Of a stretch of 64,000 nucleotides of DNA, positions 3,653-43,677 are shown piece by piece (the first letter of the stretch is position 1; each line of letters begins with the position of its first letter). This DNA is from Candidatus Fermentibacterota bacterium (GTDB taxonomy: Bacteria > Fermentibacterota > Fermentibacteria > Fermentibacterales > JCC-6). The notes below the pieces were generated by a model that was not told the DNA's origin, did not search any database, and saw only the letters and a list, made by a program, of their open reading frames with translations. The stretch covers positions 1 to 64,000 of the forward strand of contig JAUWSQ010000005.1 in NCBI GenBank assembly GCA_030609965.1, in the 5' to 3' direction. The translations under genes and the position numbers were made by a program.

Positions 3653-3706
3653 TCGTTTAAGTCTTGCCCGGTCAGCCATGAATATGTATGATTGACCCCC
3701 AACTGG

Positions 3707-3781: not shown

Positions 3782-3803
3782 GAACTACTATCGATTGGTG
3801 AAT

Positions 3804-3947: not shown

Positions 3948-3950
3948 GCA

Positions 3951-6648: not shown

Positions 6649-6662
6649 ATGCTCTGCGGGAA

Positions 6663-6690
6663 TTGTCAATCAGGATTTTGAGGCTATATT
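6663..6690 (+). promoter_or_regulatory. Promoter of the partner-switching operon
   Basis: TTGTCA (6663-6668), a 16-base spacer and TATATT (6685-6690) lie about 50 bases before the STAS gene start. Just after it a small inverted repeat (CGAAA, five bases, TTTCG at 6695-6709) sits where transcription would begin and could be an operator. Confidence 0.5.
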
Positions 6691-6742
6691 AAACCGAAAT
6701 CGATTTTCGTTTATGAAGAACTTAATTATCGGGAGGTAGAAA

Positions 6743-7500: not shown

Positions 7501-7516
7501 AAGCGATTCCCATCCC

Positions 7517-10500
7517 GTGAACAGCTTCACTCTTTCAGTAGTATTTGAAAGCAGAGAACTGCCCGGGGGCATCCGGGATATTCTTAAAACAGACGCTGAG
7601 CTTCTCATACCTCCAGGATGGGCCGATGAAATTCAGATATCCAGATCGGATATCCCGATTCCTGACGCTTTGCTGCTTGTAATCAACGGACCGCTTTCTC
7701 CAGAACTGAGACATATTTATTTCAACTGCTTCCGGCATGCTGTCCCGATCGCAGGGATATGTATCATGGATGAGCCAGAGGATGATGACGCAGTTCAGGA
7801 TCTTCTGAACAACGCTCTCTGCTGGACATTTTCCTCGGCCAATGAAGGCAGAGAGCTGATTCGGAATGAAGTTCAGGGCTGGCTTCGGAGCCTGAACCGG
7901 GAATTCCTTCCATACCCTCAGGGTGATGAGCTGCTTCAATCCTATGGCGATATTGATGTGCTTGCAGTAGATCTGGATTCACTTGAGAGGGCCAGGGAAG
8001 TTATTACCAGGCGTGGATTCGTCTGCCTCAGCGGTTCCATGGGTGCTGGAAAAACCACCATTGCGAGAAAACTGCTTGTGGAAGCCTCTCTGGATAACCT
8101 GAACCCCATAGAAATAATAACACGGGATCTGAACTCCAGGGAAGTATTACAGCTTCTTACCGGTTCTGAGGATTGTGCTGTTTTCCTTGATCTTGATACA
8201 CTCAGGAGATTGGTGGATATCTATCCCTCCCGTCTTTGGTCATCGGTTATCTCACTTATGACAAGAGCTACAGAATCAAGACACAGACTGATACTTGCAA
8301 CATCCTCCACCGAGATCGCCAGAGTGTTCGATTCATACACCGATGCACATGTCAGGCTGCCTGAACCATCAACCTATCGGAAATGGAGACTGGATCAGGG
8401 CAGGGAGGCTTTGAAGTGGTTCCGCAGACTTTCTATTCTTGAGAAGGCTGAACTGCTTCTGCTGGCAGCCTTCGATCCTGTTGTTGCTGAAGCGGTATTT
8501 AAACGGGTACTCTTCAGGCTTCTCGACAGGCTTATTGTTCAGGAGAACAAGAGATTTCCATCCAATGAAGAACTGGAGGAACTTTACAGCAAATCACTTG
8601 CAGCTGGAGGTGCTGCTCCATTCCGAAGGATCTACGGAAGCGGCGAAGTGTATATCTCTGTCAGCGACTCCGTCCGGATGTGGGCCATAGATAAAGGTAT
8701 CCAAGAATTGCTTGAAAAGGATGCTCCGGTCATCAGGGCATTTGCAGATACACTTATCGGGAGTGAGGAACTGGGTGTAAGACGGGCCGGGTACTTCCTC
8801 GCTGGCTTCTACAAAAGCCTCTCAGATGAAGTAAGGGCAAAGTTTCTTCTTCATGTAGCATCCGAGAGATCTGGAACGGTTCTGACTGACGTTCTTAACA
8901 TGCTGCTGAGCTCCGCAGATCATTCGGATAAGTCGATAATAAGCATGTACAGGATAATGATGTCGAAGGGTGATACGGAAGTAAGAGCGGCGGTTGCGGA
9001 AACTCTCGGAAGGCAGTGGGTCATCGAGCTGCCCGCGTTTGAAAACCTGGTGCGTGCTGCTGTGACTGACCCTGAACCAAGGGTGAGAGGGCGATTTATT
9101 CAGAATCTGACCATGTGGGGAATGACTGAGAAATGCGAAAAAATATACAGAGATTTTCTGGAAGATGATTCGTACGAAGTCCGCCAGGGTCTTATGCTGT
9201 ACATAGGCAGTAAGTTTCCTTCTCTGGAACCCAGGGAGTTCGATGTATTGAATGAGGTCCTCGAAGAGGGTGACCCCGGGTTGCTGTCTACCGTTATTAT
9301 GGGGCTTCTGGATAGAAAGCTTGAGGAGTTCAACCCCGAATTCAACGATCTGCTGTGGGTGCTGATGGACAGACTTCCTCCGGGAGGAAAGGGAAGACTG
9401 GCATGGAGGATAGGAGCGAGACTCAGGTTCTTCAGCAGTGAAGTCAGGAAATCCATCAGGACCGATCTTACAGAGGAGGACATCCTTCAGGTTTCGCGCT
9501 GTATGCTGATGAACTACTCCTCCCTGGATAATGCAGAAAAGGGGAACCTCTGGGAGCTGATCCACGAACGAATCGCTTTCAGCAGGGCATTCGCCGGCAT
9601 GGCGCTGGGATACTACAGTATCATGGACAATGAAATTAGAAGAAATTTTCTAACTGAAGTACTGTCAGCGGATCACTACGAAGGAAGGGAAGCTCTCAGC
9701 CAGCTTGTCTGCCTTGGCAGGACAGATCTGAGGGAAGCATCTCTTGAGCTGATTGCAGATATTATCAAGACAGGGGAATTCAAGGAGAGAGCTGCTCTTC
9801 CATTCTTCGTACTCTGGAACGGGAGTGACTTCGGTGATTCGGTTTCTGATTTTATCAGTGAATTCACTCAGGATTCCTCTTCATACGTTCGAAAATCACT
9901 TGTGAACGCGATCAGGGGCCTTGGAAAACGAACCGACGCAACCCTGGATGTACTCCGGCAACTGGCATATGATGAGAAAAGGGCTGTGAGAGCTGCAGCC
10001 GCGGTGACACTTGGAGAGTTTGAAAGTGATAAACCGCAGGACCTTGATCCTGTTCTGAAGAAATTGCTTGCAGATGAAGATCCATATGTGCGCCTTGGCG
10101 CTCTTTCGGGTCTGCTGAATAATGTCGCCATTTCCGATGTTAAACTTCTTCCAGTGGTCATGAGCGCTTTTGATGATTCTGCATCGGATGTGCGGCTGGA
10201 GATCGTTTCCGGCCTTAGAATCCATCCAGAGCTCTATTCAATACCAGATATAGATGTTAAACTGGCGGATATGTTCACTGATCCCGATAGAAATGTACGA
10301 ATGGAAGTGATAAGACTTGTCACCGAAACTCCGGAGCTGCTCGCTTCGGATATTATCAGGATCAGGATGCCTGATATTCTTCTTAACAGGTTCTCAGCCG
10401 GACATGCCATATCGGAAGAACTTAACATGGCGAGGAAGATACAGCTTGACCTGCTCCCCGACAGTCCTCCCAGTCTTGAGAGTTACGATATCGAGATTTT

Positions 10501-11131
10501 CTACAGACCTGCCAGTGAAGTAGGGGGGGATTATTATGATTTCTTCCATCTTCCAGATCGTAATCTTGGACTGGCAGTGGCCGATGTAGCCGGAAAAGGG
10601 ATCCCGGCGGCACTTACGATGGCCGGACTTAAGGGCAATCTGGTTGCTTACGTACAGAGTATTTATTCCATCAGCAAGATAATTCAGAAGGTTAACGAAT
10701 CCTCCGTTCTCGGCGAGGGGGATCCCATAATGACCGGTCTGTTCTACGGTGTGCTGGATCTTGACTCAGGTAAGCTTACTTATGTTAACGCAGGGCATAA
10801 TCCTCCACTTCTTGTGAAGAGGGAGGGGGAATCCTGCTGGCTTGAGAAGGGCGGGCTCATAATGGGTCTGTCGGCCGAGGCGAAGTATGAGCACGGAACC
10901 GTGGAGCTTGAATCGGGCGATGTGCTTGTCCTCTATACAGATGGGTTAACGGAGGCAATGGATTCATCAGACTTCGAATTCGGTACAGAGAGACTGTGCA
11001 ATGTTGTTCTGGAAAACCGTGACCTCTCAGCGCATCAGATCTCAGGCGGGATACTCGATGCTGTTAACTCCTACTCAAAGGGTTCTCCACAGGGGGATGA
11101 TCAGACCCTTGTTGTTTTGAAATACAGGTGA
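7517..11131 (+). CDS. Giant P-loop NTPase / HEAT repeat / PP2C (SpoIIE-type) phosphatase
   Basis: The 1204-residue protein has four parts. Residues 1-140 are an unrecognised alpha/beta region. Residues about 165-400 form a P-loop NTPase with Walker A GSMGAGKT (173-180) and an acidic Walker B-like strand VFLDLD, resembling STAND-type signalling ATPases. Residues about 400-960 are a long array of HEAT-like helical repeats (patterns such as DPEPRVRGRFIQNL, DEDPYVRLGALSGL and DPDRNVRMEVIRLV). Residues about 970-1204 are an RsbU/SpoIIE PP2C phosphatase with metal-binding segments GGDYYDF, VADVAGKG, YTDGLTEA and GDDQT, all intact. It is expected to dephosphorylate the STAS protein encoded two genes upstream, with the NTPase and HEAT parts as sensor. 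The start is GTG 7517, with no evident SD site. Confidence 0.85.
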   Translation: MNSFTLSVVFESRELPGGIRDILKTDAELLIPPGWADEIQISRSDIPIPDALLLVINGPLSPELRHIYFNCFRHAVPIAGICIMDEPEDDDAVQDLLNNALCWTFSSANEGRELIRNEVQGWLRSLNREFLPYPQGDELLQSYGDIDVLAVDLDSLERAREVITRRGFVCLSGSMGAGKTTIARKLLVEASLDNLNPIEIITRDLNSREVLQLLTGSEDCAVFLDLDTLRRLVDIYPSRLWSSVISLMTRATESRHRLILATSSTEIARVFDSYTDAHVRLPEPSTYRKWRLDQGREALKWFRRLSILEKAELLLLAAFDPVVAEAVFKRVLFRLLDRLIVQENKRFPSNEELEELYSKSLAAGGAAPFRRIYGSGEVYISVSDSVRMWAIDKGIQELLEKDAPVIRAFADTLIGSEELGVRRAGYFLAGFYKSLSDEVRAKFLLHVASERSGTVLTDVLNMLLSSADHSDKSIISMYRIMMSKGDTEVRAAVAETLGRQWVIELPAFENLVRAAVTDPEPRVRGRFIQNLTMWGMTEKCEKIYRDFLEDDSYEVRQGLMLYIGSKFPSLEPREFDVLNEVLEEGDPGLLSTVIMGLLDRKLEEFNPEFNDLLWVLMDRLPPGGKGRLAWRIGARLRFFSSEVRKSIRTDLTEEDILQVSRCMLMNYSSLDNAEKGNLWELIHERIAFSRAFAGMALGYYSIMDNEIRRNFLTEVLSADHYEGREALSQLVCLGRTDLREASLELIADIIKTGEFKERAALPFFVLWNGSDFGDSVSDFISEFTQDSSSYVRKSLVNAIRGLGKRTDATLDVLRQLAYDEKRAVRAAAAVTLGEFESDKPQDLDPVLKKLLADEDPYVRLGALSGLLNNVAISDVKLLPVVMSAFDDSASDVRLEIVSGLRIHPELYSIPDIDVKLADMFTDPDRNVRMEVIRLVTETPELLASDIIRIRMPDILLNRFSAGHAISEELNMARKIQLDLLPDSPPSLESYDIEIFYRPASEVGGDYYDFFHLPDRNLGLAVADVAGKGIPAALTMAGLKGNLVAYVQSIYSISKIIQKVNESSVLGEGDPIMTGLFYGVLDLDSGKLTYVNAGHNPPLLVKREGESCWLEKGGLIMGLSAEAKYEHGTVELESGDVLVLYTDGLTEAMDSSDFEFGTERLCNVVLENRDLSAHQISGGILDAVNSYSKGSPQGDDQTLVVLKYR

Positions 11132-11904
11132 TTCGGATTAATACCCTGTTTCTGCTCTCCGATTTCGGAACATCCGATACCTATGTCGCCCAGATGAAAG
11201 CGGTGATACTCTCTGCGTGCTCCCGCTCAGTTGTGATTGTCGATCTGACGCATGATGTTAAAGCGGGTTCCATCAGGGAAGGTGCTTTCCATCTTTCCGT
11301 TTCCCGAAAATATGTTCCGGCTGGTTCTGTAGTGGTTGCCGTTGTCGATCCCGGCGTGGGAACTGCCCGAAGGGGAGTGGTCTGCGAAGTAGAAGGTACT
11401 TTTTACATCGGACCGGATAACGGTATTTTTGGACTTATGCCCGTAGCCAGAGCCTGGAAACTTCCAGATCCGCAGGAGGGAGCCAGCCGTACATTTCACG
11501 GAAGGGACGTTTTCGCCTCCGCAGGAGCAAGACTTCTGCTCGATCCCGGGTGGGTAAAATTCCTGGAACCGGTTGAAATGGAAGACCTTGTTCCATCAGA
11601 GATTGAAAACCCGAGACTCGAGGACAGCGGACTGAAAGTCACGGTCGCCCATATAGATATATTCGGTAATATTGTTCTCTGGTTACCCTCATCCTGTACA
11701 TTTCATCCCGCCTTTCTGAAACTCCCAGGCGGCAGGATCGAACCTGTCAAAGAGGTTAAAACTTACGGCTCCCATCCCGGTATTCTCTTTCTTCAGGGCA
11801 GCCAGGGCTTAATGGAAATCGCTGTCAGCTGCGGATGCGCATCCGAACTTCTCGGAATAAACTCCGGTGACAGTATTCTGCTGATCAAGGAACTTAACAG
11901 ATGA
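11128..11904 (+). CDS. SAM hydroxide adenosyltransferase (DUF62/chlorinase-fluorinase family)
   Basis: The protein begins LLSDFGTSDTYVAQMKAV, the family signature, and contains VVDPGVGTARRG, GPDNG, FHGRDVFA and HIDIFGN. Biochemically studied members without halide specificity hydrolyse S-adenosylmethionine to adenosine and methionine; the Asp, Arg and His residues used there fall in the first and third motifs here. GTG 11128 overlaps the stop of the PP2C giant and the end overlaps the GH57 start (ATGA), so it is embedded in the operon. How SAM turnover relates to the partner switch is unknown. Confidence 0.88.
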   Translation: MIRINTLFLLSDFGTSDTYVAQMKAVILSACSRSVVIVDLTHDVKAGSIREGAFHLSVSRKYVPAGSVVVAVVDPGVGTARRGVVCEVEGTFYIGPDNGIFGLMPVARAWKLPDPQEGASRTFHGRDVFASAGARLLLDPGWVKFLEPVEMEDLVPSEIENPRLEDSGLKVTVAHIDIFGNIVLWLPSSCTFHPAFLKLPGGRIEPVKEVKTYGSHPGILFLQGSQGLMEIAVSCGCASELLGINSGDSILLIKELNR

Positions 11905-13046
11905 AATATGTCAGTCTGCTGCTTCACATGTATCAGCCACCAACTCAGGATATCTCTCTGGTGGCGAAAATCGACGCTGAATGCTACTCACCTCTTGCCG
12001 GATTGCTAAGCAGATCGGAAGCCAGGGTAGCGGTGAATATCAACTATTCCCTGACAGAACAGCTGGAAAGGCTGGGATCAGAATCTCTTGAACACCTGGC
12101 GAATGCACCGAATCTGGAATTCACCGACTCCGGAGCCTACCATCCCATATTTCCTCTTATCAGCGAGGATGATGTGAGACGGCAATTGAAGATCAACTCT
12201 GATGGTAATCGCCGGCTTTTCGGAAAGAACTACGATCCGTCAGGTGTTTTCCCTCCTGAGATGGCTTACTCTCCTGTACTTCCTAGTATATTCAGCAGTA
12301 TGGGCTATACCTGGACGGTGACAGATGACATTCCATTTGCCTGGACAGGCAGAAACGTCCCCTTTAACACCATTCCCGAGGTGGATGGTGTGGCTGTGCT
12401 GCTCAGGAGCAATTTCTGGAGCAACAGGATATCTTTTCACGGAGAAAATGGATTTGAAATGGCCGAGGAGATAATTGCAGGTATGCTCAGCTGGACAGGC
12501 TCCGAAGATGCCTATATTCTCATAGCAATGGATGGTGAAACCTACGGCCATCACAGAAAGGGAACTATCGAGACATTTCTAACTCCTTTCCTCAAAGCCT
12601 TTCAAAGCAGCAAGGATGCCGTAATGGTAACCCCGGGTAATCTGCTTGAGATTTTCCCATCTGTCCGGGCCTCTGTTCCATCGGGCAGCTGGTCAACAAC
12701 TCCGGGCGATCTAGATGCGGGTAAACCGTGGCCTTTATGGGATGATCCCGATAACCGGATTCATGTTCATATGAGGAAGTTATTACGCGATGTCAGGGAT
12801 ATTGCCAGACTGTGCGACTCTGACAGAGTTGCCTCTCTGGCCGATAAAATGTTATACTCGTGCCCGTTTTGGTGGGCTTCTGAAGGTAGATTCGATGCCG
12901 TGCAGGTCCGCCGTGGTTTGCTTATAATTCTGGAGACAGCTCAGGCGATATATACCGAGACCGGTGATCGCTCCATGATGGACAGGATCATGACATATGC
13001 CTGCAGTATCCCGGTAATAACCGGAGAGGATGCATTTAATGCCTAA
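11901..13046 (+). CDS. Glycoside hydrolase family 57-like enzyme
   Basis: The 381-residue protein shows the ordered GH57 motifs: LLHMYQP at the N-terminus, FTDSGAYHPI, VFPPEMAYSP containing the expected nucleophile glutamate, and MDGETYGHHR containing the expected acid/base aspartate. Family members are alpha-amylases, glucanotransferases and branching enzymes acting on alpha-glucans. It is a single catalytic module without signal peptide, so it is probably cytoplasmic and acts on glycogen-like polymer. It overlaps the SAM enzyme gene by four bases and the next small gene by eight. Confidence 0.85.
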   Translation: MKYVSLLLHMYQPPTQDISLVAKIDAECYSPLAGLLSRSEARVAVNINYSLTEQLERLGSESLEHLANAPNLEFTDSGAYHPIFPLISEDDVRRQLKINSDGNRRLFGKNYDPSGVFPPEMAYSPVLPSIFSSMGYTWTVTDDIPFAWTGRNVPFNTIPEVDGVAVLLRSNFWSNRISFHGENGFEMAEEIIAGMLSWTGSEDAYILIAMDGETYGHHRKGTIETFLTPFLKAFQSSKDAVMVTPGNLLEIFPSVRASVPSGSWSTTPGDLDAGKPWPLWDDPDNRIHVHMRKLLRDVRDIARLCDSDRVASLADKMLYSCPFWWASEGRFDAVQVRRGLLIILETAQAIYTETGDRSMMDRIMTYACSIPVITGEDAFNA

Positions 13047-13239
13047 GAAAGAAAGAACTTTTGCAGCCAAGCTGGCACACGAAGCCAGGACACTTCACAA
13101 GGATGACTGCCCTGTATGCGGCAAGGAACGGGTACCGGTGATACTCTATGCCGCCAGATACAATGACAGTGGAGACTGGCGCCCTCAGAGACGCAGGGTC
13201 AGACTCTGTGACTGCAACAGGAAAGAAATTTACGGGTAA
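13039..13239 (+). CDS. Small zinc-ribbon-like protein of unknown function
   Basis: This 66-residue basic protein carries CPVCGKE in the middle and CDC near the C-terminus, consistent with a single zinc site. I chose ATG 13039 because GGAGAGG lies nine bases upstream; ATG 13030 is the alternative. It fills exactly the gap between the GH57 gene, which it overlaps, and the nucleotidyltransferase gene, which starts 11 bases later. That supports a real gene rather than chance. I do not recognise the family. Confidence 0.65.
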   Translation: MPKKERTFAAKLAHEARTLHKDDCPVCGKERVPVILYAARYNDSGDWRPQRRRVRLCDCNRKEIYG

Positions 13240-13249
13240 ACAGACCCCG

Positions 13250-14137
13250 ATGGAGATTGAAGGGGTTCTTTTCCTTGCGGCCGGTTACGGCAGGAGGGAT
13301 GAACCCCTTACTCTTATCCGTCCAAAAGCTCTGTTGCCGTTTGGCGGCACATCGATTCTTGGAAGACTGGCTGTCCAGATAAGCTCTGCTTGTCCTCGGA
13401 GAATTAGAATAAATGCCTCAAGGTGTCCCGAAGCACTGCTGAATGAGATAGGATCGGTCTGGCCTTCTGAGATGTGTGAACTATATTTTGAAGAGAGACC
13501 ACTGGGTGCCTGTGCAACCCTGGCCAGACATGCGAATATCATGGACACGGGGACCTGGATGGTCGTGAACACGGATATGATTATTGAGGATTTTGATGCA
13601 CTCGGGTTGATTGAGCATCACAGGACAACCGGATCGACCTGGACTGTTCTAACAGGAGACTTCCCGCCCGAGGGCGCTTATTCTCCGTTATTGTTAGATG
13701 AAGATATGAAATTCGGATGCGGCGGTATCCAGAAGACGCATTACTGGGGGATTAGCCTAATGGAACCATCGATTTCGGCTGCTGCTGCAAGGATACAGGC
13801 TTCCGGAGGCTTATTCTCAGAACTAGCTTCCAGGGTAACTGCAGACTGCGGCAGGCTCACAGCCTGCAGAGGGATTGGCAGGTGGCTGGACATGGGCAGA
13901 ATAGATTCTCTTCGAAGGAATATTCTATCCGGCGGTTCTTTCATTCACCCCACAGCGTGCATTTCCAGTGATATTTCTCTCAGTGGAGTATGGAATATCG
14001 GCAGAGGTTGTATTCTCGGAAGCGGTACCGAACTGCGGGACAGTGTCATGCTTGAGGGATCATCCCTCGAAAGCGGTACGCTTCACGAATCCATACTGCC
14101 CTGGTTCTGCAGCAGCCGTGACGGTAGATCAGTATGA
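13250..14137 (+). CDS. Sugar-1-phosphate nucleotidyltransferase, MurU-like
   Basis: The N-terminal domain is a nucleotidyltransferase: LFLAAGYGRR, then PKALLPFGG, then VVNTDMI with the metal-binding aspartate. The C-terminal 60 residues contain short hexapeptide-like turns (HPTACISSDISLSG, GRGCILGSG), a left-handed helix tail. Its four-base overlap with an AmgK-like sugar kinase matches the known MurU/AmgK pairing in anomeric cell-wall sugar recycling, which makes UDP-MurNAc. The start at ATG 13250 was chosen because longer frames run through the upstream zinc-protein gene. Another sugar-1-phosphate nucleotide transferase is possible. Confidence 0.75.
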   Translation: MEIEGVLFLAAGYGRRDEPLTLIRPKALLPFGGTSILGRLAVQISSACPRRIRINASRCPEALLNEIGSVWPSEMCELYFEERPLGACATLARHANIMDTGTWMVVNTDMIIEDFDALGLIEHHRTTGSTWTVLTGDFPPEGAYSPLLLDEDMKFGCGGIQKTHYWGISLMEPSISAAAARIQASGGLFSELASRVTADCGRLTACRGIGRWLDMGRIDSLRRNILSGGSFIHPTACISSDISLSGVWNIGRGCILGSGTELRDSVMLEGSSLESGTLHESILPWFCSSRDGRSV

Positions 14138-15138
14138 GAACCATGTCTCCCGAACTTGCCGCATGGCTCAGAAGCAGAACCGATAACAGCGTAACAGCAA
14201 GAAGGCTTCTCGGCGATGTGTCGGGAAGGCGTTTCTGGCGCGTTTCCAACGGCGGGGAAACTCTCATTCTGATGGACAGCAGGAAGATTCCCATATGGCC
14301 ATGGCTGGATATTCATGAACTCCTTTCCGATCATGGATTCAGTGTTTCTTCGATCATGGAATGCGACACCAGGAATGGATGGGTTCTTCAGGAGGATCTG
14401 GGTACCTGCAGATTGCTTGATGTGGATGATGATCTGTATTTGAAATATCTCGATGAGGCAATTGAAATGATCATTGTCATGCAGAAAAAACTTGACAGCA
14501 CAGCCTGTTCCAATTCAATAGCCGGCAGAAGGAGCTTTACTCCCGCATTCTTCATGGCGGAACTCGAGAATACTCTTGAAACACTTTTCTTCCGACTTCT
14601 CGGTGTACCAATGGAAGAACTTCTCGTTCTTCAGGATCATATGCGGAAGCTCTGCGGATTGATATCGGATTCAACAGTTTTTGTTCACAGAGATTTTCAC
14701 AGTGCGAATCTCATGGTTCACAATGACAGGTTAACCATGCTTGACTGGCAGGATGCCCGGTTCGGTCCACCCTCGTACGATGTAGTGAGCCTTATAAGGG
14801 ACAGTTACCGGGATCCCGGAGCTTCATGGGAGGATAGAGCCAAGAAATTCATTATGGCTAAGGGCGATATGAACATGTTCCAGATCGCCCTGACTGCATG
14901 TCAGCGGAGTCTGAAGGCCATTGGTACTTTCTCGATGCAGTACAGGAAAACAGGTGATTCCAAGTTTCTGGGCCACGTACCCAGAACTTTCAGGTACCTT
15001 GTAGATTATTCCAGGATCTGCCCGCAGCTTGATGAACTTGTTGAGAAAACATATAACATTCTGGATGAGTATTCCGGTGAGATCGATCTGAGAGATTTCA
15101 GATACTCCAATATCCCCGGTGTACGGGAGAAGCAGTGA
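14134..15138 (+). CDS. Aminoglycoside phosphotransferase-fold kinase, AmgK-like
   Basis: The 334-residue protein has the APH/choline-kinase fold, with catalytic segment VHRDFHSANLM and metal-binding MLDWQDARFGPPSYD, the form typical of AmgK (N-acetylmuramate/N-acetylglucosamine anomeric kinase). WVLQEDLG upstream is also seen in that family. Its ATG overlaps the nucleotidyltransferase stop (ATGA), so the pair probably acts in sequence on a peptidoglycan sugar. The assignment rests on motif style and pairing. Confidence 0.75.
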   Translation: MRTMSPELAAWLRSRTDNSVTARRLLGDVSGRRFWRVSNGGETLILMDSRKIPIWPWLDIHELLSDHGFSVSSIMECDTRNGWVLQEDLGTCRLLDVDDDLYLKYLDEAIEMIIVMQKKLDSTACSNSIAGRRSFTPAFFMAELENTLETLFFRLLGVPMEELLVLQDHMRKLCGLISDSTVFVHRDFHSANLMVHNDRLTMLDWQDARFGPPSYDVVSLIRDSYRDPGASWEDRAKKFIMAKGDMNMFQIALTACQRSLKAIGTFSMQYRKTGDSKFLGHVPRTFRYLVDYSRICPQLDELVEKTYNILDEYSGEIDLRDFRYSNIPGVREKQ

Positions 15139-15139
15139 T

Positions 15140-16147
15140 ATGAACTCAGGTCGCAGCAGAAGAAAGCGTATCTTAACCGGAGACAGACCGACAGGTCCGT
15201 TGCATCTCGGGCACTATGTCGGATCTCTGCAAAACAGAGTAAAACTCCAGAAGGAGTACGAGACATTCATAATCGTAGCCGATGTACAGACATTGTCCAC
15301 GAATTTTGATCACCCGGAGCACCTTCCAGCGGATGTGAGACAGGTTACGCTTGATAATCTCTCTGCAGGCCTTGATCCGGATATTGTTAGCATCTTCATT
15401 CAGAGTATGGTCCCGCAGATCGCTGAACTTACGGTTTTCTTCTCGATGTTCATTACCGTGAACCGGCTCAGACACAACCCTACCATCAAAACCGAAGCCG
15501 GTCAGCATGGTTTTGAAGAGAACATGACCTATGGATTTCTTGGGTATCCGGTGAGTCAGGCCGCGGATATTCTTTTCTGCAGAGCCGATCTGGTTCCGGT
15601 TGGTGAGGATCAGCTTCCTGTTGTGGAAGTTTCCCGTTTTACAGCCAGGCGATTCAATGAGCTTTACGGTAACGTCTTCCCGGAACCAGCGGGGCTCCGG
15701 AGTGAGACGGCGAGGCTGGTGGGACTGGATGGCCGGGCCAAGATGTCCAAATCCCTTGGCAACTGTATCTATCTCCGCGACAGCACCGAAGAGGTCAGAA
15801 AGAAACTGATGTCCGCTGTTACTGACCCGGCCAGAATCCACAAGGATGATCCGGGGCATCCGGAAATATGCACGATATTCTCGTACCACCAGGCTTTCAA
15901 CAGGGAAGAGTCCCATGACATTGAAGAGCGGTGCCGGAAGGGAACTATCGGGTGCGTTGCATGCAAGATGAAAATGCTGCAGGTGATCGAAGAGATTCTG
16001 GAACCCATCCGTGAACGGAGAGTGCAATTCGAAAAGCCCGGCCGGATCGAAGAGATACTTAAAAAGGGAACCGAAGCTGCATGTCTTGAGGGAAGCAGAA
16101 CCATAGATCTCGTCCGCGAAGCCATGCACATCAACTATTTTGACTAA
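15140..16147 (+). CDS. trpS: Tryptophanyl-tRNA synthetase
   Basis: The enzyme charges tRNA-Trp. Class I signatures are present: GPLHLGHYVG as the HIGH element near the N-terminus and AKMSKSLGN as the KMSKS loop. GDRPTG precedes HIGH as usual in TrpRS, and the length of 335 residues is normal. I chose ATG 15140, one base after the kinase stop, with GGGAG ten bases upstream; a longer frame from 15119 overlaps the kinase gene. Confidence 0.95.
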   Translation: MNSGRSRRKRILTGDRPTGPLHLGHYVGSLQNRVKLQKEYETFIIVADVQTLSTNFDHPEHLPADVRQVTLDNLSAGLDPDIVSIFIQSMVPQIAELTVFFSMFITVNRLRHNPTIKTEAGQHGFEENMTYGFLGYPVSQAADILFCRADLVPVGEDQLPVVEVSRFTARRFNELYGNVFPEPAGLRSETARLVGLDGRAKMSKSLGNCIYLRDSTEEVRKKLMSAVTDPARIHKDDPGHPEICTIFSYHQAFNREESHDIEERCRKGTIGCVACKMKMLQVIEEILEPIRERRVQFEKPGRIEEILKKGTEAACLEGSRTIDLVREAMHINYFD

Positions 16148-16158
16148 AGGAATATGTG

Positions 16159-17592
16159 ATGAAACTATATAACAGCTTAACCCGCCAGAAGGAGGAATTT
16201 GAACCTCTCTCCCCGCCGTTTGTGGGGGTGTATGTCTGCGGACCAACGGTTTACAGCCACAGCCATCTGGGTCACGGGAAAAGCTACGTTTCTTTCGATG
16301 TTCTTATCCGATACCTGCGCCACCTGGAATACAACGTGAGGTACATACAGAATATCACAGATGTGGGGCATCTCACCGATAATGCCGACGCAGGTGAGGA
16401 TAAGATAGAGAAGCAGGCAAGGCTTGAGAAAATGGAACCCATGCAGATATCCGAGAAATACACCAAATCCTACTTTGATGATATGGACGCCCTCGGTATT
16501 CTGCGTCCCGATGTTTCTCCGCGGGCATCCGGTCATATTCCCGAGCAGATCGAACTTATAAAGGTACTTATCGAGAAAGGTCATGCCTACGAAGTTAACG
16601 GTTACGTTTACTTTTCGGTATCCAGTTTCCCAGGATACGGTAAGCTGTCCGGAAGAAAGCTTGATGAACTTGTGGCGGGAGCAAGAGTTTCAATCGATCA
16701 GGGGAAACGGGACCCTAAAGATTTTGCCCTCTGGAAAAAAGCCGGTGACGATCATATTCTGAAATGGAATTCCCCCTGGGGCTGGGGATACCCGGGCTGG
16801 CACCTGGAATGCTCAGCGATGTCAATGAGATACATAGGCGAGACACTGGATATCCACGGGGGCGGGCTGGAAAACATATTTCCGCATCACGAATCTGAAA
16901 TAGCTCAGAGCGAAGGAGCGACCGGAAAACAGTTCGCGAGGTTCTGGCTTCACAACAACATGGTTACCGTTGATGGCCAGAAGATGGGTAAGAGCCTCGG
17001 TAATTTCACTCTATTGAGAGATATTTTCGAAAAATATCACCCCATGGTAGTCAGGCTCTATATACTCAGAAGCCATTACCGGAGTCCGCTTGATTTCTCC
17101 GATATGGGTCTCGATTCAGCAAAGAGTGGCCTTGGAAGGCTACTTGCCTTCCGCTTGAGGCTTGGTCATAAGCCTTCAGAAGATACTGTAGTACCTTCCG
17201 CTGTGATTACTGCTCTTATAGAATCAGCCAGGGCGGCATTCCATGAATCCATGAACGATGATCTTAACACTCCCGCTGCGCTTGCTTCGATCTTTGAACT
17301 TGTCCGGGCCGGCAACAGTGCCCTTGACAATAATGATACCCCACAGGACAGAGTTGCTCTTGCTGCTGTACTGGATGAACTTGCTGGAGAAATTCTCGGT
17401 CTTGATCTGACCGGCAGTGATTCTTCATCTGCTGACATCGGGGAATTGTGCGAGGTACTGGTTGAGACAAGGGGGGTTCTCAGAAAGAACAAACTGTTCA
17501 AAGCTGCTGATCATATGCGAGAAAAACTTGAAACTATCGGTTATACAGCCAGAGACCTGCCCGGCGGGAAAAGTGAAATAATCAAGAAGTAA
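16159..17592 (+). CDS. cysS: Cysteinyl-tRNA synthetase
   Basis: The enzyme charges tRNA-Cys. It shows [19 protein letters not shown] (zinc cysteine and HIGH element), [22 protein letters not shown] (zinc ligands) and KMGKSLGN. The glycine in KMGKS replaces the first serine of KMSKS; this form is familiar from Bacteroidetes-type CysRS and is a weak taxonomic hint. The length of 477 residues is usual. ATG 16159 has AAAGG eight bases upstream; GTG 16156 is an in-frame alternative. It is the last gene of the run that begins at 6743. Confidence 0.95.
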
Positions 17593-37424: not shown

Positions 37425-38612
37425 ATGAAAAGGACTGTTGTGACAATGCCAGGAGATGGTATTGGAGGCGCAGTACTTGATGAAACTCTGAGAGTTCTGG
37501 AAGCTGTGGGATTCGAGGCCGATTACGTTCACGCGGACATCGGGTGGGAATTCTGGAAGAAGGAGGGAAATCCCCTGCCGGACAGGACGATAGACCTGCT
37601 TGAAAAGTACAAGATTGCACTGTTTGGGGCTATTACATCCAAGCCGAAGGATAAGACTCTTGCCGAACTTGACCCCTCATTGCAGGATAAAGGTCTCGTT
37701 TATTACAGCCCCATTGTAGCGATGCGGCAGCATTTCAACCTTGATGTATGCATGAGACCCTGCAAAGCCTTTACAGGCAACCCCCTCAATTTCATCCGCA
37801 GAGGACCTGCCGATACGATAGAAGAACCACCTGTGGACGTGGTGATATTCAGGCAGAACACGGAAGGACTGTACGGAGGTGTGGAATGGACCGACCCTCC
37901 GGACAACGTGTACGATGCCCTTATGAGCCATCCGAAATTCGAGAAGAACTTCGCCGATGTTCCCAGGAAAGATCTTGCCGTTTCCACCAGGATATTCTCC
38001 AGAAATGCCTGCAGAAGGATTCTTACGGCGGCATTTGAATATGCGGATAAATTCGGCTACAAAAGTGTTACGATCTGCGAGAAACCCAACGTTATCCGCG
38101 AGACAAGCGGTATGCTGAGGGAAGAGGGAAGAAAAATTTCAGAGAAGTATCCCAATATCGACCTATGGGAAACGAATATAGATGCTCAGATGATGTGGCT
38201 TACGAAGAATCCCGAGGATTACGGAGTGATAATCTCGAGCAACATGTTCGGTGACATCGTATCAGACGGGTTCGCAGGGCTTGTAGGAGGCCTCGGGTTT
38301 GCCTGCAGCGCCAATATAGGCGAGGAAGTCGCTGTATTCGAGCCTACTCACGGTTCGGCTCCGAAGTATGCGGATTACGAGGTGCCTATCGTCAACCCTA
38401 TGGCGATGATACTCTCCGCCTGCATGATGCTTGATCACATCGGTGAGACGGAAAAGGCTGTAAGGATAAGGAAAGCCATCGAAACCGTTATAGCCGAAGG
38501 TAAAATTCGCAGCTACGACATGCTGAAGCTGAAGGGTTCGCAGGATGTTCTGGAAAAGGGAGCCGCAAGCACAACCGAAATGACCGATGCTATTATCAGT
38601 GCTTTGAACTGA
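37425..38612 (+). CDS. Isocitrate/isopropylmalate dehydrogenase family enzyme
   Basis: The 395-residue beta-decarboxylating dehydrogenase has MPGDGIG, FRQNTEGLYGGVE, NMFGDIVSDGFAGLVGGLG and FEPTHGSAPKYA. The last motif and the general style favour an NAD-dependent isocitrate dehydrogenase, but 3-isopropylmalate or another 2-hydroxyacid cannot be excluded. No leucine genes are adjacent. A GGGAGC SD-like site precedes the ATG. Confidence 0.82.
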   Translation: MKRTVVTMPGDGIGGAVLDETLRVLEAVGFEADYVHADIGWEFWKKEGNPLPDRTIDLLEKYKIALFGAITSKPKDKTLAELDPSLQDKGLVYYSPIVAMRQHFNLDVCMRPCKAFTGNPLNFIRRGPADTIEEPPVDVVIFRQNTEGLYGGVEWTDPPDNVYDALMSHPKFEKNFADVPRKDLAVSTRIFSRNACRRILTAAFEYADKFGYKSVTICEKPNVIRETSGMLREEGRKISEKYPNIDLWETNIDAQMMWLTKNPEDYGVIISSNMFGDIVSDGFAGLVGGLGFACSANIGEEVAVFEPTHGSAPKYADYEVPIVNPMAMILSACMMLDHIGETEKAVRIRKAIETVIAEGKIRSYDMLKLKGSQDVLEKGAASTTEMTDAIISALN

Positions 38613-38623
38613 CCGGAAAGGAA

Positions 38624-38674
38624 AGGGACGTACCACAAATGTGGTACGTCCCTAACTCCACGTCCCTAACTCCA
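38624..38674. repeat. AGGGACG-family hairpin repeat, copy 1
   Basis: AGGGACGTACCACA (38624-38637) and its exact complement (38640-38653) form a near-perfect hairpin. CGTCCCTAACTCCA then occurs twice in tandem (38647-38660 and 38661-38674). The same AGGGACG core recurs at 39801 and 41084. It resembles REP-like elements associated with small transposases in other genomes; no transposase is nearby. Confidence 0.7.
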
Positions 38675-38748
38675 CCTCAGGAACTGCTGACCGCATGTCG
38701 GCTATATATGGCAGATTAACCTCCCGAACTCATGCGAAGGGAAACACA

Positions 38749-39225
38749 TTGAAAAAGTTCTTAATTCTGCTGCTTGCCGTTCTTGCCGGTGCAGCCCTGT
38801 CAAATGAACCAGGTGAAGCACTCGAAAATCTGGTAGATGCATTCTATGAAGGTGATGCCTGCAGTGTTGAAGAAGGCCTTTCCTCGAATTCGATCAATAT
38901 GCTCAACATGATGCTGATGATGGTTAAAATGCAGCCGGATCAGGCTGCAGCTGAGATCTCAGCGGAACTTCAGATAGCTCTGACCGGCAACGAACTCCTT
39001 TCCTGGACAACCACTGATTTTATCTACGTTCTCATCAGCGCTCCCGGAATTACGGATAAGCTTCCACTAAGAGAGGATATAGAGGTTTCCAGCTTTGAAA
39101 TACAGGGAGACAGCAGCACCGTATTCCTGAATATCCCTGACTATCCAGCAGATATTCCAATAGCCATGGTTCTTGAAGGGGATGACTGGAAGCTCGGCGA
39201 AAGCTTCCTGCAGTCGGAACTCTAA
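38749..39225 (+). CDS. Secreted protein of unknown function
   Basis: The 158-residue protein has a signal peptide (KKFLILLLAVLAGAALS) and a mature acidic, helical-then-beta domain. It is related in style to the minus-strand protein at 45649-46128, with ALENLVDAFYEGD, a middle helix and a final strand near LEGDDWKLGESF. This recalls DUF4878/NTF2-like lipoproteins that start with a short helix and end with a VxEGDxWKL strand. Start TTG 38749 has GAAGGG seven bases upstream; a longer frame from 38695 was not used. Confidence 0.65.
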   Translation: MKKFLILLLAVLAGAALSNEPGEALENLVDAFYEGDACSVEEGLSSNSINMLNMMLMMVKMQPDQAAAEISAELQIALTGNELLSWTTTDFIYVLISAPGITDKLPLREDIEVSSFEIQGDSSTVFLNIPDYPADIPIAMVLEGDDWKLGESFLQSEL

Positions 39226-39241
39226 ATGAGAAGGGTTATCC

Positions 39242-39802
39242 ATGAAAGACAAAATTGAGGTACTTTTCAAAGAGCAGCTTGATAAGATCAGTGACCCTGA
39301 GCTAAGACGGAAGACTGTTGAAATATGGACCACCGCTGCAGAAGAGGGTGGATGGGAACCGGACGATCTGGAGAAGATCCCGTTCACGCTGCTTACCGAT
39401 ACTCATGGGATCAACCTGATCCAGCACACTATCGCCGTTACCGAAGGCGCTCTGGGGCTTGCCCTTGCGATACAGTCAAACTGCAGTCTGCCGTTTGAGA
39501 TCGACCATGATGTTCTTATTGCCGGAGGACTTCTTCACGATGTGGGAAAACTTCTGGAGATCGAGCGTACCGGGGATGGTTACGTGAAGAGCCTTCATGG
39601 CAAACACGCAAGACATCCCATTTCCGGGGCAATACTGGCCGCAAGGTTTGATATGCCGATGGCTATTATCAATATGATAGGGTGCCATGCGAAGGAGGGG
39701 GAGGGAAGACCTCAGAGGGTGGAAACTGTGCTTGTTCATCAGGCTGATTTCGCCACTTTCAACCCCATGGTCATGCTCAAGAAAGGCCTGCTGATAACTT
39801 AG
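39242..39802 (+). CDS. HD-domain phosphohydrolase
   Basis: The 186-residue protein carries an HD domain with HTIAV as an early histidine, GGLLHDVGKLLE as the HD pair, HARHP and a later QADF aspartate, consistent with a metal-dependent phosphohydrolase. The substrate is unknown. It starts 16 bases after the secreted protein gene with AAGGG upstream. Its stop codon falls within the AGGGACG repeat copy at 39801. Confidence 0.8.
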   Translation: MKDKIEVLFKEQLDKISDPELRRKTVEIWTTAAEEGGWEPDDLEKIPFTLLTDTHGINLIQHTIAVTEGALGLALAIQSNCSLPFEIDHDVLIAGGLLHDVGKLLEIERTGDGYVKSLHGKHARHPISGAILAARFDMPMAIINMIGCHAKEGEGRPQRVETVLVHQADFATFNPMVMLKKGLLIT

Positions 39803-39833
39803 GGACGTTTTCTATTTAGTAAGTCCGACCTTG
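39801..39833. repeat. AGGGACG-family repeat, copy 2 (compact form)
   Basis: AGGGACGT at 39801-39808 is followed after 12 bases by AAGTCCGACCTTG (39821-39833). The same two motifs in the same order bound the interval 41084-41303. The gene 39857-41080 therefore lies between direct repeats. Confidence 0.6.
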
Positions 39834-39856
39834 ATTGTGCAGAGTGAAGGGGAAAC

Positions 39857-41080
39857 ATGATCACCTGTATCATAAGCTTAGTATTGCTTGTTATTCCACC
39901 AGCAATAACATCCGAATCAAGCTGGACCTCACCTGATATCCGCATAGTTGAAGAATGGAGCCTGGATGTCCTGAACAGGATTGAACCTGCATACACACAC
40001 CTGGGTACAGTGTATGGTGTTGAATCAGAGAATGGATTTGAATGGCACACTATTCTAGTTGACAAGGATTACGTTCTTCATTTTGAGGGAAATGCCCTGA
40101 TAGATAGCATTCCATATTCCGGCGATATCTGGAGAATGACATTTTCTCCGGACTGTCGGTACCTGCTGGGATACTGTTATAACGATGAGAAGCTTATTCT
40201 CTTCGATCTTGCTGAAAGAACAGTAATTTCAAATCCCTTTTTCTCAGAGTCTCCAGAACTTCCCGGTAACCCTCTCATCCGTGTGACTAATGATGGAACA
40301 GTACTGGTTAAGCATTCCACTTATCTCAGGATGTATGATTCTCATTTTAACAATATTCTATCGCGCGACAACTTCAGCTGGGGAGGTAGTTTCATAAGTC
40401 TATCAAACTCTGGTGATCGCTTCTATATAGAAGACAACTACAACATCTATGCATACGATATACAGGCCAATCTCTTATGGAGTATTGCCCTGCCTGAAAC
40501 AACTGAACAGTATCCATCAAGAATTTACTCATTATCCAATACTGGAGCAATGCTGGCTGTTACAGATTTTAGTTCCACAGATTTTAACAAGTTATATGTA
40601 TACAGCACTACTTCTGGTGACATGATGGTTGAGCTTCGGTTTGAAGATAGTATGGGTGGACCTGAGTTCAGTGAATCCGATTCCCTTCTAATAGTGCAGT
40701 GTTATACTCATCCTGAAGTTACTCCACGTAGACCAATTAACAGCTATGGATTGAGATCTTTCGCATTACAGAATAATTCGATTGAAATTAACAGTGAGTT
40801 TCACGCACCAAATATTGCCGCTGAATCAACAATGTCATATTGTTTTTCGACTTATATGATATCTAATAACGGATTCATTCTAGGTTTTCTATACTACAAT
40901 CCAAGCTTTGCAAAAATAGCACTGCTATCTCCAGATATGGACTTTATATGGCTATCAGAGAATCTATTCTGGAATCGAAGCTGGAATTTCAGTTTTCCCT
41001 CAAATCAAAATATTCGCAACGATAATTCCGGATTCTGGTATTATGACGGTGAAAGCATTCATTCTTGCCTGATTGAGTAG
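39857..41080 (+). CDS. Secreted beta-propeller-like protein, AT-rich
   Basis: The 407-residue protein has a signal peptide and repeated WD/TolB-like strand sets (FSPDCRYLLGY, LSNSGDRFYI, LSNTGAMLAV). This suggests a propeller, but no family was recognised. Codon and base use look clearly more AT-rich than in the flanking genes. It is bracketed by copies of the AGGGACG and AAGTCCGACC motifs, which points to acquisition as a cassette. GAAGGGG precedes ATG 39857. Confidence 0.65.
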   Translation: MITCIISLVLLVIPPAITSESSWTSPDIRIVEEWSLDVLNRIEPAYTHLGTVYGVESENGFEWHTILVDKDYVLHFEGNALIDSIPYSGDIWRMTFSPDCRYLLGYCYNDEKLILFDLAERTVISNPFFSESPELPGNPLIRVTNDGTVLVKHSTYLRMYDSHFNNILSRDNFSWGGSFISLSNSGDRFYIEDNYNIYAYDIQANLLWSIALPETTEQYPSRIYSLSNTGAMLAVTDFSSTDFNKLYVYSTTSGDMMVELRFEDSMGGPEFSESDSLLIVQCYTHPEVTPRRPINSYGLRSFALQNNSIEINSEFHAPNIAAESTMSYCFSTYMISNNGFILGFLYYNPSFAKIALLSPDMDFIWLSENLFWNRSWNFSFPSNQNIRNDNSGFWYYDGESIHSCLIE

Positions 41081-41083
41081 CTA

Positions 41084-41303
41084 AGGGACGTACCACATTT
41101 CTTCAACTAATTTGACGTGATACAATCTGAATATGTAAGTAATTACAAGATTAGCGCAAATTATTATAGAATATATCAATAAGCATCTTATGAATATCTA
41201 CAGTATGATACTACGTATATCACAAATCATACCTATTCTAATTTATTCCATAATATCGAATATAGAATGGGTCGTATAGCTAAGAAATGTAAGTCCGACC
41301 TTG
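41084..41303. repeat. AGGGACG-family repeat, copy 3 (long form) with AT-rich interior
   Basis: The interval begins AGGGACGTACCACATTT and ends AAGTCCGACCTTG (41291-41303), like the compact copy at 39801 but with about 190 bases of very AT-rich sequence inside. The interior has no supported gene. It makes up most of the gene-free stretch 41081-41433. Confidence 0.6.
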
Positions 41304-41306
41304 CGC

Positions 41307-41335
41307 TTGACTTGTTCCTGTGCGGGAACTATTTA
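41307..41335 (+). promoter_or_regulatory. Probable promoter of the C25 protease gene
   Basis: TTGACT (41307-41312), a 17-base spacer and TATTTA (41330-41335) lie about 100 bases before the start. The spacer holds an inverted repeat GTTCC/GGAAC (41314-41329), a possible operator. Confidence 0.4.
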
Positions 41336-41433
41336 TGAATATTCAAGTTTATACTTACTGAGATTCTGGATCGTTGTAACTCAGATCATTCATACATTTC
41401 ATAAATGATGCCCCTAGCTTCTGGAGGTAGAAA

Positions 41434-43677
41434 ATGTTGCGAGTGCTTATCATTCCATTACTGCTAATAGCAGTAGCAGCAAGTGCCGAAGTAGTTTATC
41501 GCGCCGAGGAATCTGCAGAAACTGCCTTGTACCTTGGCACGGACGCCGAAGGTATTCTGGTTGAATTCAACCTTCCAGCACTTACTGTGGAAGATGAAAT
41601 AGTGGGAGATTTCGGTTCTGGAAACGTTCTGAGAATTCCTGGAGAGGGAATGGGCATGCCTGTTGGTAGTCCCGACCTCCCGGTTATCAGAAGAATGGTT
41701 CTTATTCCCAATACGGGTGCTGTGAATGTGGAGATCGTTTCATCTGAATCATCGCCCCTCGGAATCTACAATATTCCTCCATTCCAGCAGTATCCTACCA
41801 GGAGCGGAGGACCCGCACCTTACAGAATTAATGAAGATCTCTATTCCACTTCTGAATTCTATCCCGCGCAGCCTGTATATGTTGAGAGGATAAGCATCCT
41901 CCGGGACATCAGGGTTGCATGGGTAGTATTCTCACCTGTTCAGTACAATCCTGTTACCGGTGAGACAACAATCAACACGAATATCACTGTTCGCCTTACA
42001 ACTGAAGATACAGGCGAGAACGAGCTTTTTAAAACTTTCTATGGATATACGCGAAGTTACCTGCCGATCTATCAGAAGGTTCTTGGATTCGAAGAGGGTG
42101 GAACAGATGTAATTGACGGTTCCTACCTCGTTATAGGATCCGATGAAAGCATCGCCTACGCTCAGGATCTCATCGACTGGAAAAGGCAGACAGGCCTTGA
42201 TGTCCAGTACGGTGTTATTCCGGGTATCGGCAGCACCGCCAGTGCGATAGATGCTTGGATCGAAGATGCTTACAACAACTGGCCCAATCCGCCGGAATGG
42301 ATTCTTATCGTTGGCGACGAGAACGTTGTGCCACCTCCATATTATGGTGGAGAGGAAGCTGATAACCTGTACGGTGTTATTGGTTCAGGTGTTGATCCAA
42401 GTATACATGTCGGCAGGATATGTGGAGATACAGGTACACTGGCGTACCAGAGCTGGAAGATAGAGAGCTACGAGAACGATCCGTATGAGCCAGCCTCAAC
42501 CTGGTTTCAGCATTCCATCAGCATCGGCTCGACCGATTTCCAGGATCCCCTGATGTCTTACAGGTATGCCCAGGTATTTTTGGCAGATGGTATGACCAAT
42601 ACACTCTACTGCAATTCCAGCGCCTTTGGCGGTATTCCGCCCACGATCTCGAACATATCAGCCGAGGTTAACAGCGGACTGTCCCTCCTGAGTTACATAG
42701 GGCATGGAAGCCTGACATCCTGGGGAACTACCGGTTTCAGCAACAGTAATGTTGCGGCATTATCCAACGGCCGCAGGCTTCCCTGGGTCAGTTCCATTGC
42801 CTGCCAGAACAGTTCATTCGACAATTCAACAATGTGTTTCAGTGAAGCATGGATGACCTCCGGTTCTGTAGCAGACCCCAAGGGTGCTGTCGGATTCATG
42901 GGCGCAACCATGAACAGCCCTGTCGGCCCAACTGATTCATTGGCCATGTATCAGTTCAGGGGGTATTTCGAAGAGGAAATGTACCACATGGGAGCGGCCT
43001 TCGATTACGGCAAGATAATGGCATATTTATATACGGGAAGCGCAAGTAATAGTAATATGCACATGATAATGGGCTGTCCCGAATTCGATATTTTTACAGA
43101 CACATCGCCAATTGTGCATATGACCTGCGATCATCCCACAACAATCGCCGCAGGCAACTGGAATGTAACGGTAACCGCAGGCGGATCACCAGTTGAAGGT
43201 GCGCTTGTAGGTGTTGTTCAGGACACAACCCTGCTTCAGAGCGGTTACACCAACGCTTCCGGCCTGGTAACCCTTGCTATTCCGTCAATTCCCGGTACAG
43301 GTGATGTTACGGTTACGGGTACATATCATAATCTGTATCCCTACGTGGGCTCGGCAACCGTGTCCGGAACCGGTACTGCCGGTGATGAGACAGGCGTACT
43401 GAGCTTTAATCTTTCCGCTCCGGCACCAAACCCGTTCGCGGGTTCCACTGCAATAGCCTTTACTCTTCCTGCGGCCGGAAACATGTCCCTGGATGTTTAC
43501 GATGTATCCGGCAGACTCGTGACCACTGTCACATCCGGTGAGAGGCTTGCTGGAAGTCATTCGGTGCTCTGGTCGGGAACCGATTCTGAGGGTGCACCTG
43601 CACCCGGCGGTATCTACCTGCTGAGACTCACTGCCGGCGGTGACACCATGACAAGGTCCTGCGTGATCATCAGATAA
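41434..43677 (+). CDS. Gingipain-like C25 cysteine peptidase with C-terminal sorting domain
   Basis: The 747-residue exported protein has a signal peptide, a propeptide region to about 220, and a C25 catalytic domain with YIGHGS (His near 422) and SIACQNSSFD (Cys near 455). An Ig-like domain follows, then a C-terminal 85-residue FlgD-Ig/type IX sorting region: PAPNPFAGSTAIAFTLP, LDVYDVSGRLV, GGIYLLRL. This implies type IX-style secretion, as in Porphyromonas, and supports FCB affinity. GGAGG lies six bases before ATG 41434. An intrinsic terminator follows. Confidence 0.92.
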   Translation: MLRVLIIPLLLIAVAASAEVVYRAEESAETALYLGTDAEGILVEFNLPALTVEDEIVGDFGSGNVLRIPGEGMGMPVGSPDLPVIRRMVLIPNTGAVNVEIVSSESSPLGIYNIPPFQQYPTRSGGPAPYRINEDLYSTSEFYPAQPVYVERISILRDIRVAWVVFSPVQYNPVTGETTINTNITVRLTTEDTGENELFKTFYGYTRSYLPIYQKVLGFEEGGTDVIDGSYLVIGSDESIAYAQDLIDWKRQTGLDVQYGVIPGIGSTASAIDAWIEDAYNNWPNPPEWILIVGDENVVPPPYYGGEEADNLYGVIGSGVDPSIHVGRICGDTGTLAYQSWKIESYENDPYEPASTWFQHSISIGSTDFQDPLMSYRYAQVFLADGMTNTLYCNSSAFGGIPPTISNISAEVNSGLSLLSYIGHGSLTSWGTTGFSNSNVAALSNGRRLPWVSSIACQNSSFDNSTMCFSEAWMTSGSVADPKGAVGFMGATMNSPVGPTDSLAMYQFRGYFEEEMYHMGAAFDYGKIMAYLYTGSASNSNMHMIMGCPEFDIFTDTSPIVHMTCDHPTTIAAGNWNVTVTAGGSPVEGALVGVVQDTTLLQSGYTNASGLVTLAIPSIPGTGDVTVTGTYHNLYPYVGSATVSGTGTAGDETGVLSFNLSAPAPNPFAGSTAIAFTLPAAGNMSLDVYDVSGRLVTTVTSGERLAGSHSVLWSGTDSEGAPAPGGIYLLRLTAGGDTMTRSCVIIR

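Follow-up and report, generated by a model that had tools for sequence, protein, structure and literature searches.

A propeller gene between copies of a hybrid terminal-repeat block at a variable gene junction in apparent Candidatus Aegiribacteria

We analysed a 64,000-nucleotide stretch of contig JAUWSQ010000005.1 from a Candidatus Fermentibacterota bacterium (the window), in which a gene for a beta-propeller protein lies between two copies of a repeat block. The genome containing the window (G000) is a 2.62-Mb draft in 81 contigs, 80.7% complete with ~19% missing, and the comparison set for its genus comprised 19 genomes. The propeller gene (39857-41080, + strand, 407 amino acids) stands between an HD-domain gene on the left (39242-39802, + strand; Pfam HD, E 1.6e-11) and a syntenic C25 (gingipain-type) peptidase gene on the right (41434-43677, + strand; Pfam Peptidase_C25, E 8e-44), a junction referred to below as HD-C25. 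The stop codon of the HD gene overlaps a compact repeat copy (39801-39833, + strand), and a long copy (41084-41303, + strand) follows the propeller gene. A preliminary description of this DNA had placed repeat copies at these two sites and a hairpin at 38624, where we find all of them, and had read the arrangement as a cassette produced by recombination between the repeats.

What had been described as a single motif pair, AGGGACG...AAGTCCGACC, consists of two unrelated repeats that adjoin each other, AGGGACGTACCACATTTCTTCAACTT (TIR-A) and AAGTCCGACCTT (TIR-B), named as terminal inverted repeats (TIRs). A single repeat ending in AGGGACG and AAGTCCGACC was rejected, because the ends come from two different transposon families, the transposases of which are 35.8% identical. 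On their own, the short motifs do not exceed chance in the window (AGGGACG: 7 seen vs 6.6 expected; AAGTCCGACC with at most 1 mismatch: 3 seen vs 3.3 expected); the long forms, unlike the short motifs, are real repeats. The long copy is a hybrid in which a TIR-A left end (41084-41109, + strand, 1 mismatch to the 25-mer search pattern) and a TIR-B right end (41280-41302, + strand, 2 mismatches to the 23-mer pattern) face each other, and it resembles the single block of genome G008 (73% identity over 256 of 261 query bases). The compact copy, read as a decayed resident block, is mainly a TIR-B end (GTAAGTCCGACCTTG) and runs on into ATTG, a feature it has in common with G002 and G011. Its folding does not exceed that of shuffled sequences (z +0.84), and the idea of a folded repetitive extragenic palindrome (REP) was rejected. 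The orthologous site reads TTAGGGTCA, TTAGGGGTT and ATAGGGGCA in three sister genomes, and for this reason the AGGGACG of the compact copy may be a chance occurrence. No transposase frame was found within either block (39801-39833; 41084-41303), on which ground a composite transposon was rejected.

TIR-A and TIR-B form the ends of elements in two TIRtron families, which have Y1/HuH transposases, in genomes that appear to be Candidatus Aegiribacteria. The TIR-A 25-mer (GGGACGTACCACATTTCTTCAACTT, at most 3 mismatches) has 19 copies in G000 and is present in 16 of the 19 genus genomes, its reversed control pattern yielding 0 copies in any genome searched; the TIR-B 23-mer (GTMAGAWARKTAAGTCCGACCTT) was found at 52 places in 13 of the 19 genomes, vs 1 for its control pattern. 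Inverted TIR-A pairs ~1.24 kb apart enclose a Y1-type frame (346-364 codons, stop to stop) in 10 of the 10 elements fetched from as many genomes (L176-L185), and the open reading frames (ORFs) adjoining this element are identical in kind on both sides in eight genomes and on one side in the other two. The TIR-A transposase of G000, the protein scanned for this family, matched Pfam Y1_Tnp (E 1.2e-13) and, weakly, Bac_DnaA_C (E 7.1e-5; 23.2 bits, below the cut-off of 31.5); those of L176, L179 and L183 share 56-78% identity with it. Pairs of TIR-B ~1.1 kb apart bound a second Y1 frame in three genomes (G018, G017 and G012; elements L226-L228), that of G018 being split. The G017 transposase matched Y1_Tnp (E 7.4e-9), and the TIR-B protein gave no Bac_DnaA_C match at E 0.001. 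G000, in a draft that lacks ~19% of its sequence, contains four Y1 genes (L036-L039). One encodes the TIR-A transposase; to that of TIR-B, all four are only distantly similar (26-37% identity).

Across the genus genomes, TIR copies occur single, paired and clustered, and their placement is REP-like. The 80 regions and 10 further sequences, 92% of which is ORF, contain 125 copies: 86 intergenic, 24 lying over an ORF edge and 15 within an ORF. Where genes were called on both sides (117 copies), the gap is convergent in 47 cases, divergent in 9 and co-directional in 61, vs 70, 88 and 222 of 380 gaps of at least 60 bp. Other Y1 genes and junctions (G000 C51:67536, C38:21829 and C16:8792; L093, L094) carry, by eye, other repeats, of the TAGGGACGGAGG, CCTGACCCC, GGGGCCGGGCG and GGGGACATGCA types, so that several repeat families coexist.

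The HD gene was detected in 13 of the 19 genus genomes, and all 13 HD-C25 junctions (12 relatives and the window) were inspected. Empty-site alleles, which the preliminary description had proposed to look for, do exist: the propeller gene is absent from nine of the 13 junctions (G001, G002, G008, G009, G011, G012, G013, G017 and G018). Seven of these nine hold one TIR block or a remnant of one: G008 has a full block, G018 and G012 have a TIR-A-led one that has diverged further, G009 has a short remnant, and in G002, G011 and G013 the TIR-B end is what is left. At the G010 junction the gap is ~1 kb, ~0.8 kb above most empty sites, and contains a gene for an antitoxin (Pfam Unstab_antitox, E 8.5e-16) next to a frame for which Pfam gave no match. 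By eye, this antitoxin gene (L087 ~4850-5780) lies between apparent remnants of TIR-A and TIR-B ends. The G006 junction has a divergent propeller homologue together with another ORF, and that of G005 other sequence, in which the 6.8 kb retrieved gave no match to C25. Both copies in the window were aligned with the empty sites of the relatives (null of 200 shuffles each). The right copy scored above the shuffles in all seven block-holding alleles (0/200) and aligned best with G008 (score 285, shuffle maximum 76), followed by G002 and G011 (244 each). The left copy matched the G011 empty site in two mismatch-free stretches, one of 10 and one of 19 bases (score 45, null maximum 27, 0/200), and reached a score of 40 with that of G009 (0/200). 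To judge from these alignments, the left repeat resembles the empty-site remnant of sister species, and the right one a full TIR-A...TIR-B block such as that of G008.

The junction is thus polymorphic for the presence of the propeller gene, its repeats are those of the TIR-A and TIR-B families, and a differently decayed block lies on each side of the gene; the position of the gene between two such copies suggests recombination at the block, a hint that is specific to this locus. We consider it probable that TIRs of two families had left an ancestral block at HD-C25 and that the propeller gene was added there by homologous recombination at that block. The repeats are solo, paired and hybrid TIRs of elements with IS200-like Y1/HuH transposases of the REP-associated class, and they sit mostly between genes. 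In this scenario, the common ancestor of G000 and its nearer relatives would already have carried one TIR-A...TIR-B block at the junction. The G000 lineage would then have gained the propeller gene, in the manner of a minimal mobile element, from a family spread through the genus, and homologous recombination at the block might have brought in the gene together with a full block beside the decayed resident one. Transposase action was probably not needed, because neither block carries a transposase gene. Several observations weigh against such a recombination. The left copy reaches only 1/200 shuffles against each of G002 and G013 and is not clearly above chance against G008, G012 and G018 (12, 85 and 13 of 200), and the left and right copies share only a 15-base identical run, which is little for RecA-type recombination. 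No TIR was seen at the empty sites of G017, where a different inverted repeat stands, and of G001, no donor with a propeller gene and a TIR block was found among eight homologues, G000 is an incomplete draft in many contigs, and in the genus-wide comparison described below there is no excess gene gain at TIR junctions among gaps of at least 60 bp (6/21 vs 11/54, p = 0.54).

The gene had been called a propeller gene, and profile and fold agree that the protein is a WD40-like beta-propeller. Its profile matches the ATG16L1 WD40 domain (E 2.5e-6), and its AlphaFold model, of moderate confidence (mean predicted local distance difference test score 62; residues 1-66 under 50), has 1280 matches in the PDB at E 0.001 or better, with modest TM-scores, by query length, of at most 0.44 among the best 50 of these. 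By eye, the protein has an apparent signal peptide, and, to judge from its orientation, the gene probably forms an operon with the HD gene. Among 60 relatives searched, members of the family turned up in 11 genomes, eight of the same genus and three, with weak matches, of another genus of the family; of six named loci for the protein, five are in Candidatus Aegiribacteria metagenome-assembled genomes (MAGs) and one in a Fermentibacteraceae MAG. The lower GC content noted in the preliminary description holds, with 0.396 for the gene (0.366 at third codon positions) vs averages of 0.487 and 0.487 for the 37 non-overlapping window ORFs of at least 250 amino acids, the propeller gene counted in. 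As a mark of recent transfer it was rejected, since low GC is a trait of the family, seen in all 10 copies that were inspected (GC 0.395-0.453; partial copies included).

For eight propeller homologues at other loci, no TIR borders the gene: within 350 bases upstream and 400 downstream, every match has 9 or more mismatches (contig ends removed an upstream flank in one case and a downstream flank in another, and a further downstream flank extended over 104 bases). The homologues are for this reason not part of a standing cassette. A TIR-A-like GGGACGTAGTCAACTTCGTCAACTT lies ~1.9 kb downstream of the L097 copy, too distant to be its edge. By eye, the likeness among the paralogues (L096-L102) starts around the ribosome-binding site and extends to ...CTGATTGAG, immediately beyond which most of them diverge, as if the gene moved as a compact unit. 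The homologue at the G006 junction raises the question of whether the gene was ancestral there and was deleted between repeats in most lineages, since G006 belongs to another branch. This homologue is 41-42% identical to the window copy, far less alike than the G005, G014 and G011 copies at other loci (59-64%), although the HD genes of G006 and the window are 85% identical, and an ancestral gene would require many losses; we regard it as very improbable. A small tree, rooted on the most divergent copy, likewise places the window propeller nearer to the copies from other loci than to the G006 junction copy (support beside G006 is low, 0.27), and tree and identities together (59-64% vs 42%) argue for separate arrivals at the junction in the window and in G006.

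A genus-wide comparison addressed gene gain at TIR junctions in general. It covered 193 junctions from 80 regions of 5.7-19.5 kb, nine junction loci and the window; the regions were picked around TIR copies in seven genomes and are non-random, some rows are the same event counted twice, ORFs of at least 100 amino acids were called with a simple picker, and TIR presence was scored at up to 4 mismatches. Where the empty allele held a TIR, another genome had gained a gene in 7/23 junctions vs 18/170 without a TIR (p = 0.016), and with a TIR in any allele the figures were 8/24 vs 17/169 (p = 0.005). Leaving out HD-C25 gave 6/22 vs 18/170 (p = 0.038). The excess is lost among gaps of at least 60 bp, also when HD-C25 is left out (5/20 vs 11/54, p = 0.75), and among gaps of at least 100 bp there is no excess at TIR junctions either (3/15 vs 8/41, p = 1). 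With short gaps of the operon type left out the effect vanishes, so that the apparent link between TIRs and gene gain may be due mostly to a tendency of TIRs and gene insertions alike to stay out of operons.

These figures bear directly on the possibility that the repeats are bystanders, present simply because TIRs build up in non-operonic gaps. The propeller gene would then have come into such a gap through ordinary recombination, either illegitimate or guided by flank homology, and the second block would be a local duplication. The lack of a TIR-specific insertion excess once gaps under 60 bp are excluded fits such a course of events, as do the eight homologues elsewhere without TIRs at their edges and the general preference of TIRs for gaps between genes. 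Plain insertion would not, however, yield two differently decayed copies, each retaining the outer junction of the relatives, and we think this account unlikely, if still worth serious attention.

A true cassette system would go further: promoterless genes between TIR blocks would be mobilised through the TIR ends, which the Y1 transposases might cut in single-stranded form. Same-direction TIR-A copies enclose an HTH_ParB-like gene (G000 C14), a Fic gene (G010 C35), and an SLFN_AlbA gene and a CarboxypepD_reg gene (G005 C10), and by eye the insert in the window spans nearly from the ribosome-binding site to the stop codon. At the first of these loci (L187/L246 2371 and 2972), the two TIR-A copies bracketing the HTH_ParB-like gene are each followed by a similar ~85-bp stretch. 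Such genes are too few for claiming a cassette system; the genus-wide comparison turned out negative after control for gap length, TIR-A and TIR-B have different transposases, and none of the four Y1 genes found in G000 closely resembles that of the TIR-B enzyme (26-37%), all of which makes a system of this kind highly improbable. Hardly better is the prospect that TIR-A/TIR-B blocks serve for docking, with recombination there adding, exchanging and removing promoterless genes, and with domesticated Y1 transposases that maintain a gene-exchange grid across the Aegiribacteria without moving genes themselves; if it were true, REP-like repeats would gain a role in gene exchange, but the genus-wide comparison does not support docking. 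The earlier proposal of a cassette formed by recombination between repeats is therefore partly supported, and for this locus only: empty sites in 9 of 13 junctions and a repeat block on each side of the gene speak for it, whereas homologues without TIRs and the lack of a genus-wide excess among gaps of at least 60 bp do not, and what we see is mostly ordinary gene insertion near repeats of a known type.

To the left of the HD gene lies a conserved isocitrate/isopropylmalate dehydrogenase gene (IDH; 37425-38612, + strand; Pfam Iso_dh, E 1.1e-78; syntenic in relatives). The perfect hairpin at 38624-38653, listed in the preliminary description as a third copy, is a head-to-head TIR-A dimer in the IDH-P176 gap, independent of the propeller insertion; it is followed by an extra ACGTCCCTAACTCC copy at 38660-38673, and the RNA fold of 38615-38665 has -29.3 kcal/mol (z -7.2). 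A TIR-A tip is present in this gap in 3 of 10 genomes (G000, G010 and G011), and as the hairpin sits in a different junction it was rejected as a third cassette boundary. The same gap of G002 and G009 contains, by eye, a different inverted repeat. On the other side, a conserved element, TTGACTTGTTCCTGTGCGGGAACTATTTATG (41307-41337, + strand), precedes the C25 gene and may be a promoter or a hairpin; its TTGACTTG...GGAACTATT form is present in 7 of the 12 other junction loci. It looks promoter-like by eye and contains a 6-bp hairpin classed as terminator-like in a scan, which gave no promoter at 41307-41337, only the hairpin.

A second kind of arrangement was observed in the same genomes. Repeated copies of a small orphan HTH_ParB-like gene (~100 amino acids), all in one direction and separated by accessory genes (PQQ propeller, Gp49/HTH and Fic/HTH pairs, histidine kinase), form what looks like a cassette array. 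Loci include L363 (G011:C18) 1754-16407, L246, L193, L364-L381 and G000:C13:64639-64800, just beyond the window end; one 16.4-kb contig has eight copies spaced ~1.3-2.8 kb apart, and matches at E 0.001 or better, some with stops, occur in 16 of the 19 genus genomes. A conserved stretch of two types, GGCGCCTCGACAGTGTCTCCCAGCGAACC and GGTACACCGGACTTGTGTCCAGTCGAACTC, lies upstream of many copies (e.g., L363 3970, 6163, 11166 and 12458, - strand copies), and for 38 of 55 copies the ~260 bases upstream include GGCGCCT or GGTACAC, two of the 55 being cut by contig ends. This stretch may serve as a site for recombination or may encode a conserved N-terminus; a link to Rfam RNAs or tRNAs was rejected, none reaching threshold in the three and six loci scanned. 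Tyrosine recombinase genes are present in G000, and in G010 three consecutive ones lie on one strand (G010:C8 552-2904).

The TIRs described here resemble REPIN/RAYT-REP elements in being short, dispersed repeats that form palindromes and accompany a gene for a Y1 transposase. They differ from GTAG REPs and REPINs in having no GTAG tag, the tips being AGGGACGTACC in TIR-A and AAGGTCGGACTTA in TIR-B, and in forming the terminal inverted repeats of an element. A literature search on REPIN hotspots and REP-linked gene cassettes returned nothing on point. The repeats are of a known type, and two TIRtron families are here placed in an uncultured lineage, with the TIR-A transposase beside the same neighbours in 8 of 10 genomes while its ends are scattered in a REP-like manner. 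The locus also illustrates how a "cassette bracketed by repeats" may arise from a repeat-rich gap.

The closest published likeness of the elements is with the TIRtrons (TIRYT) as presented in the portion of Di Nocera et al. (2013; PMC3733652) drawn on here, which have a Y1 transposase gene between inverted terminal repeats, as do the TIR-A and TIR-B elements, and moderately abundant single, paired and clustered copies. REPs are located mostly 3' of genes according to the same text, and TIR placement is similar here. Some TIRtrons, but not all, share the motif GGGGWSAS, to which TIR-A comes close without matching it, reading at best GGGGACGT; the hybrid TIR-A/TIR-B block is a further difference, and the host lineage goes unmentioned in that portion of the paper. 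The transposases probably match TnpAY1 subclass 2.1 as outlined in part of Quentin et al. (2018; PMC6006769), judged by the long protein and the NHxH, FQ and YIHxNP motifs (by eye). Of the C-terminal domain of this subclass (Bac_DnaA_C or HTH), the TIR-A protein shows the weak Bac_DnaA_C match below the cut-off given above, and the TIR-B protein none at E 0.001. For the HD-C25 junction itself, the closest frame is the minimal mobile element of Neisseria, to the extent that it is described in the relevant parts of PMC3082526 and PMC1538595. As in these elements, different whole genes occupy the space between two conserved genes (a propeller in G000, an antitoxin in G010, a divergent propeller and an ORF in G006, none in nine genomes), and no mobility gene lies between the conserved genes in the window; unlike them, the alleles compared here come from species of a genus and not from strains.

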